Source of the DNA: Haloferax larsenii JCM 13917
Lineage (GTDB): Archaea; Halobacteriota; Halobacteria; Halobacteriales; Haloferacaceae
Direction of reading: 5' to 3'
NCBI RefSeq assembly: GCF_000336955.1
Contig: NZ_AOLI01000030.1
Span: forward strand, 1 to 52,690
Length of the DNA stretch: 52,690 nucleotides
Made by a program: the position numbers and the translations under genes. Positions 35,943 to 41,418 of this stretch are shown piece by piece (position 1 is the first letter of the stretch; every line of letters begins with the position of its first letter). The notes below the pieces were generated by a model. The model made no database searches. It saw only the letters and a program-made list of their open reading frames with translations, and was not told the origin of the DNA.

Positions 35943-37142
35943 TTACCGGATTACGTCGAGACCGTTGTTCTTCTCGACTTCGTCGCGACCGCCGTCGGAC
36001 CACGTACCGCTCTGCGCCGTCTCGGCACGTTGCGAACTATCGAATTCCTGACGCTGCTGGCTCTGACTCTGTCCCTGACCTTGGATGCTCTGGCGGGACT
36101 TGTCTGCCTGCTTTTGCGTCGTCGGACCGAGGACCTGTGCCGACTGGACACCGGTCATGATAGCCATCACGCGGACCTTGCCCTTGTACTCGTCTTGGAT
36201 GCGAGCGCCCCAGATGACGTTCGCAGCCGCTTCGAGTCGTTCGGTGATGTTGCTCGCGATTCCCTCGGCCTCCTTGAGTGTGAGGTCGGGGCCGCCCGTG
36301 ATGTGGACGAGGCCACCGGATGCACCCCGGTAGTCGACGTCCAAAAGCGGGTGGTTCATCGCGTCGTTGACCACTTCTTGGGTCTTGTTCTTGTCCTGTG
36401 TCTCACCGACGAGCATCACCGCGACGCCGCCCTGATTCATGATAGTAGACATGTCGGCGTAGTCGAGGTTGATGAGCGACGGTTGGGTGATGGTCTCCGA
36501 GATGCCCTTGACCGTCTCGGCGATAATCTGGTCCATGACCGAGAACGCCTTTCCGATGGGCAGGTTCGGGACGTAATCGAGGAGACGGTTGTTGTCGAGG
36601 ACGATGATGGAGTCGGCTTCGTTGCGAAGCTTCTCCAGACCTTCCTCTGCTTTGACCGTCCGGGCACGCTCGACGTTGAACGGCGTCGAGACCATGCCGA
36701 CCACGATAGCTCCTTGTTCTTTGGCAATCTTGGCGACGACCGGTGCCGCACCAGTACCGGTTCCGCCACCCATGCCGGCGGTGACGAACACGAGGTCGGC
36801 GTCGCCGAGGACGTCCTTGATGGTGCCTTGCGCCATCTCCGTAGCGCGCTCGCCCATCGAGGGGTCGCCACCGGCACCGAGTCCCTGCGTCAGGGACTTA
36901 CCGACGAGTATCTTCGTGTCCGCTTCGATCATCTTCAGGTGCTGCTTGTCGGTGTTGATAGCGACCGTGTCAGCACCTTCGACGCCAATATTGTAGAGCC
37001 GGTTGATGGTGTTGTTACCGGCACCACCAGCACCGACGATGACGATACGCGGGTCACCAAACTGGTCGTCGTCGTCAGACGACATCTTCGATTGGCGTTC
37101 TGCTTCGTCCCGCTCCATCGCCTCGCGAACAATATCCTGCAT
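35943..37142 (-). CDS. ftsZ2: tubulin-like cell-division protein FtsZ2
   Basis: The 399-residue FtsZ2-type GTPase acts in septum constriction in Haloferax. It has the nucleotide-binding [23 protein letters not shown], the tubulin signature [12 protein letters not shown] (with preceding LVFVTAG) and [18 protein letters not shown]. The N-terminus [17 protein letters not shown] is typical of FtsZ2. A Gln/Ser-rich linker near the C-terminus leads to NNGLDVIR. It is separated by 2 nt from cdrS and so co-transcribed with it. Confidence 0.95.
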
Positions 37143-37144
37143 GA

Positions 37145-37330
37145 TTACACCTTTGCCCAGCTGCGCTTGCTGGTAGATTCGCGCTGGCGGTTATCGGCTG
37201 TCTGTTCGTTGAGCATATCGCGGACGGCGGACCGAATGGCTTCAGACCGGTTCGGGAATTCTCCCGTCTCGACCATTCGCTCGACCTCCTCGATCTGCTG
37301 CTTCGGAATTCGTAGTGTCACACGCTCCAT
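37145..37330 (-). CDS. cdrS: ribbon-helix-helix cell-division regulator CdrS
   Basis: The 61-residue MetJ/Arc/CopG-type DNA-binding protein begins [20 protein letters not shown], continues with [16 protein letters not shown], and ends in a short basic tail. The length and its place immediately before ftsZ2 match CdrS, reported to activate ftsZ2 and other genes in Halobacterium and Haloferax. ATG 37330 is chosen because the RHH strand starts here. GTCTTAC half-sites lie in its upstream region, one only 15 nt before the ATG. Confidence 0.93.
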
Positions 37331-37345
37331 GTTTACATTCCCCCG

Positions 37346-37503
37346 GTAAGACGGCGCGCCGCACGTGAGTGCGAGTGTCATACGTCCCAAAACCGACGGA
37401 CAGCGCCCGTTTCGGGGTGCCCATCGGGAGGGTGTAAGACAACCGTCTTACGCGATAGTCACCACAAAGCGACGGGATATAAATGTAACGGCGGTTGTAA
37501 GAC
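37346..37503. promoter_or_regulatory. GTCTTAC operator array upstream of cdrS-ftsZ2
   Basis: Four exact 7-mers occur: GTAAGAC at 37346-37352, GTAAGAC at 37434-37440, GTCTTAC at 37445-37451 and GTAAGAC at 37497-37503. The middle two form a perfect inverted repeat with a 4-nt spacer (37434-37451). The minus-strand TATA-like element (complement of ATATAAAT, 37477-37484) predicts a start near 37454, right beside the inverted repeat. Binding by CdrL or CdrS is inference. Confidence 0.65.
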
Positions 37504-37516
37504 AGTACTTGAATGG

Positions 37517-37535
37517 GTTATATACTGTATTTAAC
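37517..37535. promoter_or_regulatory. AT-rich 19-bp near-palindrome between cdrL and cdrS
   Basis: GTTATATACTGTATTTAAC reads the same on both strands except for one mismatched pair. It begins 7 bp after the cdrL stop and contains TATA-like sequence on both strands. It could be an alternative promoter for cdrS-ftsZ2, a further operator or the cdrL transcript end. Confidence 0.4.
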
Positions 37536-37541
37536 CGGGGA

Positions 37542-38165
37542 TTATGGTCCTTCGAGAACGTTTGCTGCCGGCGTCCGACGGCCGCAGTCTGGACAGAACG
37601 CCCAGTCAGACCGAAGTTCAGCATTGCACTCGCAGAATACTCGTTGGGTCGCCTTCTCGCCGCAGTTCGGACAGTAGACGTGGTCTCCCTCGATGGACTC
37701 GCCGCACTGTCCACACGTTAGTTCGGTCGCTTCCGGGACGTTGCCTGCCCGTGCCGTCTCGTGGTGCGTGTCGTCACCCGGCCCAGCGGGCGTCTTACGT
37801 TCTGCATTCGCCGTTGTTTCGGGCTCGTACTCCGTGTTTACGTCCGAATCGCCGTCTGCACCGTCGACGTTAATGTTGACAGTAACTTCAGACGAATTGC
37901 CATGCTCGTGGTTGGGGAGGGCGTCGTCGAGATACGCGGGAAGCCGTTCTTCCAATCGGCGTTCGACGAGTTCGTCGACGCGGGCAGTCAGCACGTCGTC
38001 GAAGTCCGTCGGCTGACCGTCGGACTCGTCTGCGTCGGTCTGGTCACGTTCCATCTGGTCGAGGTACTGGCGGAGGGCTTCGCGCATCACCTCGCTCTTG
38101 GAGGTGTCGAGTTCCTCCAATCGCCCGACGAGAGCGTCGTCGGCGCGGAACGTGATTTTCGTCAT
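37542..38165 (-). CDS. cdrL: ribbon-helix-helix regulator CdrL with double zinc-ribbon
   Basis: The 207-residue regulator has an N-terminal RHH domain (MTKITFRADDALVGRLEELD, SEVMREALRQYLDQM), an acidic disordered middle (~55-145) and a C-terminal double zinc ribbon (CGQCGESI...CPNCGEKA...CECNAELR...CPDCGRR). The pairing of a long RHH protein with the short RHH protein and ftsZ2 is the reported cdrL-cdrS-ftsZ2 locus, where CdrL is described as controlling the cdrS-ftsZ2 operon. A GTCTTAC 7-mer also lies inside the gene (37792-37798). Confidence 0.9.
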   Translation of the reverse strand: MTKITFRADDALVGRLEELDTSKSEVMREALRQYLDQMERDQTDADESDGQPTDFDDVLTARVDELVERRLEERLPAYLDDALPNHEHGNSSEVTVNINVDGADGDSDVNTEYEPETTANAERKTPAGPGDDTHHETARAGNVPEATELTCGQCGESIEGDHVYCPNCGEKATQRVFCECNAELRSDWAFCPDCGRRTPAANVLEGP

Positions 38166-38282: not shown

Positions 38283-38356
38283 CCGCTCTTAGCTCAGCCT
38301 GGCAGAGCAGCCGACTGTAGATCGGCTTGTCCCCCGTTCAAATCGGGGAGAGCGGA
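38283..38356 (+). tRNA. tRNA-Tyr (GTA anticodon)
   Basis: This is a 74-nt cloverleaf. The acceptor stem CCGCTCT (38283-38289) pairs with AGAGCGG (38349-38355), with discriminator A at 38356. The D arm is GCTC...GAGC. The anticodon arm GCCGA-CTGTAGA-TCGGC has anticodon GTA at 38317-38319. The T arm is CCCCG-TTCAAAT-CGGGG. The C1-G72 pair is the archaeal tyrosine identity element. No intron is present and CCA is not encoded. A short CTTTTCC run follows. Confidence 0.96.
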
Positions 38357-38398: not shown

Positions 38399-38453
38399 CC
38401 CGATTTGGGCAGCGAGCAACGCGAAGCGTTGCGAGTGAGTTCAAATCGGGGAG
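38399..38453. repeat. hairpin element duplicating the tRNA-Tyr T arm
   Basis: Outer arms CCCGATTTG (38399-38407) and CAAATCGGG (38442-38450) enclose inner arms GCAACGC (38416-38422) and GCGTTGC (38426-38432). The right side repeats 15 nt of the tRNA (GTTCAAATCGGGGAG, 38336-38350) exactly at 38439-38453. This may be a remnant of integration at the tRNA 3' end or a mobile hairpin element. No integrase gene is near. Confidence 0.6.
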
Positions 38454-38552
38454 CACAGAGTTTCCCGAGTGAAACGGCCGCTGACGGCATCCATTACCAG
38501 TCCGCCAGCATCTATCAGCCGATTTATCAATACGCACCCACGTTCTCCGAGT

Positions 38553-40477: not shown

Positions 40478-41418
40478 CTGCCGCGGTTGCTGTGGTCGCC
40501 GCCGCAGTGCTCGACCGGCTTTTCGCCGAACCGCCGGCCAGCGTCCACCCGGTCGCCCTGTTCGGACGTGTGGTCGCACCCTTCGACCGAGAGTGGTCGT
40601 CTCCAACGGTTGTGGGTGCGTGTGCCGCGTTTACGCTACCTGCGCTGGCTGCGGGTGTCGTCGCAGTTGCGACGTTGGCCGGTTCGTCCGTCTCTCCGTG
40701 GGTCGGTGCGACCGTCGCCGCGCTCGTGCTCTTTTCGACGACGAGTCTCCGAATGCTTCTCGACGCGACCGAGGCTGTCGTCTCGGCGACTGCCTCAGAC
40801 GTCGAGGCGGCTCGAACGGAACTCCGTGCACTCGCCGGACGCGACCCGGCATCGTTGTCGGCAGGCGAAATTCGAAGCGCCGCCGTCGAGAGCGCGGCCG
40901 AGAATCTCGCGGACGGGCTGGTCGCGCCGCTTCTCGCGTTCGCGCTTGTCGTCCCGTTCTCGCTTCCCCTCGCAACCGGCGCGGCAGCGTGGGTGAAGGC
41001 CGTAAACACGCTCGATTCGATGCTCGGCTACCATCACAAGCCGGTCGGTCGCGTTCCGGCCCGACTCGACGACGCGACGATGTGGTTTCCCGCCCGTGTG
41101 TCGGCTGTCTTACTCGCCGCCGTCGGCGGGTCTCCGAGTGTCCTCGGGCGCGTGGGGTCGCTGGCGCGACGACCGGCCTCACCCAACTCCGGATGGCCGA
41201 TGGCGACGCTCGCGGTCCTTCTCGGGACGCGACTGGAGAAACCCGGACACTACTGCCTCGACGGTGGACCCGACTTCCCGGATTCGGAGACGGCTGCACG
41301 GGGAGTTCGACTCGTCTCACGTGCAGGCCTGAGCGCGTTCGCGCTCGCGGGCGTGGTCGCGTGGCTGTCGCCAACGAGGAGTGTATCCGTCCCCGTGGAG
41401 GTGTTTGCATGGTTCTGA
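40468..41418 (+). CDS. cbiB: adenosylcobinamide-phosphate synthase CbiB
   Basis: The 316-residue membrane enzyme attaches (R)-1-amino-2-propanol phosphate or a related aminoalcohol to adenosylcobyric acid. Family features are the early LDRLFAEPPASVHPVALFGR, the central IRSAAVESAAENLADGLVAPL, and VNTLDSMLGYHHKP with ARLDDATMWFPAR. Several hydrophobic segments (~5-25, 45-90, 155-180, 205-225, 290-310) fit an integral membrane location. It overlaps both neighbouring genes. Confidence 0.93.
   Translation: MPVTAAVAVVAAAVLDRLFAEPPASVHPVALFGRVVAPFDREWSSPTVVGACAAFTLPALAAGVVAVATLAGSSVSPWVGATVAALVLFSTTSLRMLLDATEAVVSATASDVEAARTELRALAGRDPASLSAGEIRSAAVESAAENLADGLVAPLLAFALVVPFSLPLATGAAAWVKAVNTLDSMLGYHHKPVGRVPARLDDATMWFPARVSAVLLAAVGGSPSVLGRVGSLARRPASPNSGWPMATLAVLLGTRLEKPGHYCLDGGPDFPDSETAARGVRLVSRAGLSAFALAGVVAWLSPTRSVSVPVEVFAWF

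Follow-up and report, generated by a model that had tools for sequence, protein, structure and literature searches.

We found that the promoter region of the division operon cdrS-ftsZ2 in Haloferax larsenii JCM 13917 carries an array of sites of the 7-mer GTCTTAC, in either orientation, that is probably a double-stranded DNA operator for an RHH regulator, with the adjacently encoded CdrL as its most likely, putative, binding protein. The sites are conserved and constrained at the DNA level, and nearly all genomes that have the inverted pair have it once. The window in which they were found is the whole stretch of 52,690 nucleotides analysed here (contig NZ_AOLI01000030.1, positions 1 to 52,690), and evidence from the rest of the genome comes from pattern searches and selected stretches.

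Three genes on the reverse strand frame the array (Table 1), which lies together with a TATA box in the 211 bp that separate cdrL from cdrS. CdrL consists of an RHH domain, the CdrL_M middle region and a double zinc ribbon (Pfam), and CdrS is 100% identical to its counterpart in H. elongans. Both exceed the curated cut-off for RHH_1, making them candidate RHH proteins encoded beside the array. The CdrL N-terminus reads M-S/T-K-I-T-F-R, with K3, T5 and R7 invariant, and the two N-terminal strands align as M-E-R3-V-T5-L-R7 (CdrS) and M-S-K3-I-T5-F-R7 (CdrL). Upstream of cdrL is a tRNA gene (38283-38356) whose 3' end sequence, gttcaaatcggggag, recurs ~100 bp further (about 38438-38454) and resembles an old integration or duplication scar. 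Elsewhere in the class, deep-branching haloarchaeal genomes (L127 in genome G021; G217:C11:130935-131243) encode, beside cdrL, another RHH protein that resembles the N-terminus of CdrL, and Haloferacaceae archaeon XH8 (CP132292) has the cdrL-cdrS locus twice (L021 and L022), near both ends of the chromosome record, one copy with a shortened CdrL (148 aa), reflecting either duplication or assembly overlap.

Table 1 Features of the cdrL-cdrS-ftsZ2 locus in the window; site sequences are given on the gene strand, and offsets are relative to the predicted transcription start.
Feature	Position	Strand	Sequence or evidence	Remarks
cdrL	37542..38165 (38165 -> 37542)	-	ORF; Pfam RHH_1, CdrL_M, DZR	
S0	37792..37798	-	GTAAGAC	within cdrL; encodes R-K-T of variable linker
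S1	37497..37503	-	GTCTTAC, exact	about -50 to -44
TATA box	37477..37483	-	TTTATAT; sequence and constant distances	cdrS-ftsZ2 promoter
S2	37445..37451	-	GTAAGAC	first arm of inverted pair; about +3 to +9
S3	37434..37440	-	GTCTTAC	second arm of inverted pair; about +14 to +20
S4	37377..37383	-	GTATGAC, degenerate	consensus GTAAGAC
S5	37346..37352	-	GTCTTAC	15 nt ahead of cdrS ATG
cdrS	37145..37330	-	ORF; Pfam RHH_1	small RHH regulator; operon gene 1
ftsZ2	35943..37142	-	Pfam Tubulin and FtsZ_C	tubulin-like division protein; operon gene 2

The initial annotation had reported four exact copies of GTCTTAC, on either strand, within about 160 bp, and its coordinates were all borne out: the gap holds four, of which two form an inverted pair with a 4-nt spacer (37434-37451), one lies directly upstream of the TATA box (S1) and one precedes the cdrS ATG (A at 37330) by 15 nt (S5). 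The copy described inside cdrL was likewise recovered and proved conserved (S0), and the only other occurrence in the window is distant, at 41107. The annotation had overlooked S4, which is degenerate here and reads GTAAGAC in nearly all other Haloferax. A 19-bp near-palindrome that it had listed at 37517-37535 is present, but among the other Haloferax it is kept in H. elongans only, and we dropped it as part of the operator for want of conservation beyond that species. Between S5 and the cdrS ATG, the sequence GGGGAA (37338-37344) is nearly invariant in haloarchaea and may be a ribosome-binding sequence or part of the operator. Site offsets rest on a transcription start placed near 37453, 27 nt below the TATA centre; with the resulting leader of ~125 nt and the 186-bp cdrS ORF, a monocistronic mRNA of ~310 nt would be expected, compared with a published cdrS Northern signal of "about 250" nt (PMC8406309).

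Judged from the window by itself, the significance of the array is modest: some 7-mer reached at least 4 copies in 50 of 3000 Markov-shuffled versions of the 211-bp gap (1.7%), a frequency at which a GC-rich intergenic region could conceivably repeat a 7-mer by chance, while GTCTTAC itself never reached 4 copies in 100,000 shuffles. Class-wide conservation refutes this reading, and we consider its probability practically negligible. A scan for the inverted pair in the 3.7-Mb genome of H. larsenii, allowing spacers of 0-20 nt, returned one occurrence. Searched as a pattern across the class, GTAAGAC-N3-7-GTCTTAC was present in 374 of 391 genomes and 83 of 86 genera, with exactly one copy in 372 of the 374 positive genomes, and the reversed control pattern had almost no matches. 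The two surplus pairs (G239 and G363) were away from the cdrS locus and in no ORF longer than 200 aa. In all 27 genomes for which both coordinates were printed, which were compared by eye, the pair was located ~100-135 bp upstream of cdrS. It was also absent from the three genomes without detectable cdrS, and the remaining genomes with cdrS but without the exact pair had a variant pair at the same position. Variants included 2-nt spacers (GTAAGACacGTCTTAC), a GTCATAC second arm, a GTGAGAC first arm, a degenerate second arm (L098) and, in Haloquadratum, GTATGAC-3-GTAAGAC-3-GTATGAC, with a direct-repeat form at 10 bp.

The remaining sites showed a similar, though graded, constancy. Location of the array in the cdrL-cdrS intergenic promoter region holds in the window and in 80 loci, and distances from the TATA box are constant in most loci (20 bp to S1, 32 bp to S2). 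S1 reads GTCTTAC in 53 of the 80 loci, the flipped GTAAGAC in 18 and near variants in 9, such that it is exact in one orientation or the other in 71. Among 119 haloarchaeal leaders, S2 was exact in 118, S5 in 112 and S3 in 110, and S4 was GTAAGAC in 82. The S2-S3 spacer was 4 nt in 88 leaders, 5 in 17, 3 in 7, 2 in 6 and 6 in 1, and the two site centres were 11 bp apart in most loci (range 9-13). Thus sub-sites lie about one helical turn apart and orientation is tolerated, with S1 flipping, as in RHH operators. The conservation check, which could have refuted the operator reading, instead showed the motif kept across Haloferax and the class. Taken as a claim about an operator, the initial annotation is therefore strongly supported, the array being class-wide, single-copy, positioned at the promoter and flexible in orientation.

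Constraint at the DNA level is apparent at S0. GTAAGAC occurs at about the same cdrL codons in 53 of 80 loci (species), always in the identical reading frame, and the CdrL linker around the encoded R-K-T is otherwise poorly conserved. Of the 60 Arg codons there, 59 are CGT, compared with 285 of 1510 (19%) over the whole of cdrL, and the Lys codon is AAG in 57 of 60; this codon bias indicates selection at the DNA level and rules out S0 as a chance match within the gene. Two loci (L046 and L077) have two tandem S0 copies 15 bp apart. Helical phasing of the S0-S2 distance (294-375 bp) was tested and not found (p = 0.24), so looping between them has no support from spacing. A regulatory site would be retained within the gene that encodes its putative regulator.

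Because the predicted leader folds well, a role of the repeats in RNA was put to the test, in which S2 pairs with S5 and S3 with S4, or two hairpins form, and transcript stability or translation is controlled. The 125-nt leader folds better than its shuffles (z = -3.5), with S2:S5 and S3:S4 nested, and a column pair next to the sites, S2+2 with S5-2, was GC in 54, AU in 8 and GU in 4 leaders. Structurally senseless column pairs score equally high, however, and the compensatory changes of a structured leader did not appear: the core pairs lack covariation, the RNAalifold covariation term was -0.12 and 7 of 10 consensus pairs never vary. S2:S3 pairing is broken and uncompensated in Haloquadratum, which has GTATGAC as a direct repeat, and in genus g17, which has GTCATAC, and S4 deviates in 37 leaders, in 25 of which S3 and S5 are unchanged. 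Of the other sites, S0 is within cdrL, and S1, found in either orientation, precedes the TATA box and is not part of the transcript. An Rfam search of the leader gave no match. We therefore regard an RNA element as very unlikely; a double-stranded DNA site fits the observations on folding, S1 and S0 together.

Sites of a related type mark CdrS targets. We reconstructed the CdrS motif from promoters, as the published logo (PMC8406309) is an image and was not directly compared. In the H. larsenii ftsZ1 promoter (L103/L131), GTCGGAC-agat-GTCTGAC is directly upstream of the promoter element, and this layout recurs in the 27 readable ftsZ1 promoters of the class (L144-L171), exactly in about half and with 1-2 mismatches in the others. 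H. larsenii panA and hisB have a CdrS-type pair with one mismatch, and dacZ and psmB a degenerate pair with two mismatches, at a distance of some 35-70 bp from where transcription probably starts; with ftsZ1, all five genes are on the published H. volcanii CdrS list (PMC8406309). A scan of the H. larsenii genome for the CdrS motif, allowing one mismatch, found 44 places compared with 10 for the reversed control, and matches near AT-rich promoters were read further. Two more perfect CdrS-type pairs were observed, one (L129 position 1500, C20:45735) preceding a gene that begins MKFTTWNPVYQSILDD, with a divergently oriented response regulator gene on the opposite side, and the other (L130 position 1500, C25:106456) upstream of a gene starting MGLTCRLLGHSYGE; both are possible unlisted CdrS targets.

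Arrays of the same GTC/GTC type occur at cdrS itself in methanogen relatives that have cdrS-ftsZ2. Promoters of cdrS from 57 methanogen genomes contained 115 exact GTCnGAC sites compared with 1.3 expected, and no GTAAGAC pairs. The sites follow a strict 11-bp period, with spacings of 11, 22, 33, 44, 55 and 66 bp, and lie mostly downstream of the TATA box, in arrays within the 120 bp that precede cdrS (L119, L118, L122, L121 and others). These are probably CdrS autoregulatory operators. No full-length CdrL was detected in the same 57 genomes, matches covering only the middle region and zinc ribbon of the profile, and the GTA-containing operator coincides in distribution with CdrL, confined to lineages that have it.

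The initial annotation had left the binding protein as CdrL and/or CdrS, a choice that these comparisons narrow in favor of CdrL. In Halobacterium, the region upstream of cdrS-ftsZ2 was the sole reproducible CdrL ChIP-seq peak (PMC7439475), with which one array per genome agrees, while the 18 CdrS ChIP-seq sites of H. volcanii do not include cdrS (HVO_0582; Table 1 of PMC8406309). The CdrS pair is GTCnGAC-N4-GTCnGAC, compared with GTAAGAC-N4-GTCTTAC at the cdrS promoter, where the outer halves are GTA. Haloarchaeal cdrS-promoter 7-mers comprised 385 GTA/GTC, 19 GTC/GTC and 2 GTA/GTA sites (6, 4 and 3 expected), and none of 80 haloarchaeal cdrS promoters contained a GTCnGAC-N4-GTCnGAC pair. CdrL is the likelier binder because CdrS sites are GTC/GTC and the cdrS promoter is GTA/GTC, and because of the two ChIP-seq sets. 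Autoregulation by CdrS homodimers through GTCTTAC sites would be consistent with the presence of CdrS in both lineages, with ancestral autoregulation through the methanogen arrays and with a difference between GTCTTAC and GTCnGAC in one half-site only, but the omission of cdrS from the ChIP-seq list, the GTC/GTC pairs at CdrS targets in H. larsenii itself and the composition of the haloarchaeal promoters make it unlikely. The near purity of GTA/GTC 7-mers at the cdrS promoter, set against GTC/GTC at CdrS-type promoters, could also reflect a CdrS-CdrL heterodimer in which CdrS contacts the GTC half and CdrL the GTA half, so that feedback would depend on the operon's own product; only the outer halves are altered, the inner GAC-N4-GTC and its spacer being equal to the CdrS pair. 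Against such a complex, this promoter is not among the CdrS ChIP-seq sites, with the caveat that the N-terminal FLAG tag adjoined the DNA-reading strand. Asymmetric half-sites also need no heterodimer, because NikR of E. coli, which is a homotetramer containing two RHH domains, recognizes GTATGA-N16-TCATAC (PMC7055735). We consider the heterodimer quite improbable, slightly more so than CdrS autoregulation; if it did exist, the division operon would sense the CdrS:CdrL ratio, CdrS homodimers would serve ftsZ1, dacZ and the proteasome genes, and an ancestral GTC/GTC operator would have turned heterotypic as the paralogue CdrL arose.

With CdrL as the binding protein, the comparison with methanogens suggests that an operator ancestrally used by CdrS passed to CdrL. 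In the simplest history, CdrS would first have governed its own operon through GTC/GTC arrays, and haloarchaeal CdrL would then have captured the cdrS promoter by a change of one half-site, CdrS retaining GTC/GTC sites elsewhere, including at ftsZ1. The difference between R3 in CdrS and K3 in CdrL is a candidate cause of the specificity change; as a sufficient switch it was rejected, since K3 is present in four methanogen CdrS proteins whose sites are nonetheless mostly GTC/GTC.

By analogy with other RHH proteins, each 7-mer (GTC-W-TAC) could be read as a GTC half and a GTA half around a central base, occupied by one dimer. The dimers on S2 and S3 would be neighbors, separated by about one helical turn, and would cover the first ~20 transcribed bases, a placement expected to hinder initiation. 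S1, S4, S5 and S0, the last of these ~350 bp upstream, could contribute cooperativity or looping via the zinc-ribbon tail of CdrL. In this way the level of CdrL would set cdrS-ftsZ2 output, as a repressor or limiter. In archaea, regulators bound at the promoter or downstream of it usually repress, and those bound upstream usually activate (PMC8406309), so S1 may act with the opposite sign and could support activation as well.

RHH operators of the MetJ/Arc/CopG type are tandem arrangements in which neighboring pseudo-palindromic sub-sites, spaced by about one helical turn, bind one dimer each. The array shares this adjacent sub-site layout and differs in that its sub-sites are heterotypic and near-invariant class-wide, with additional sites ahead of the TATA box, within the leader and in the gene of the regulator. 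It would thus be an RHH operator of a known kind, unusual in its heterotypic half-site, class-wide single-copy conservation and intragenic member. NikR belongs to the same superfamily, its chains 2bj1 and 1q5v being matched by the CdrS profile, and its GTATGA half-site is contained in S4 (GTATGAC); NikR is nickel-responsive, with another C-terminal domain and widely spaced half-sites, whereas CdrL carries a double zinc ribbon and its putative sites are adjacent. The H. volcanii CdrS regulon (Liao et al. 2021, PMC8406309) likewise involves an RHH regulator, whose symmetric motif precedes ftsZ1, dacZ, panA, psmB and hisB, and the equivalent H. larsenii pairs have two sites 11 bp apart like the cdrS-promoter pair. 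CdrL control of cdrS-ftsZ2 was described in H. salinarum with identical genes in identical order (Darnell et al. 2020, PMC7439475); the Halobacterium peak was published without an operator sequence or motif (the word "motif" is absent from that paper), while here a six-part layout, its class-wide conservation and an intragenic site are defined. Among the top-ranked matches of a literature search, none linked GTAAGAC/GTCTTAC to cdrS.

These results provide an exact and testable cis-element, a putative CdrL site, for the division operon of nearly every haloarchaeon. CdrL-type and CdrS-type operators would be told apart by one half-site, with an origin that can be traced to CdrS-type arrays in methanogens, and the array bears on how archaea that divide by FtsZ set the levels of their division proteins, here the amount of FtsZ2.
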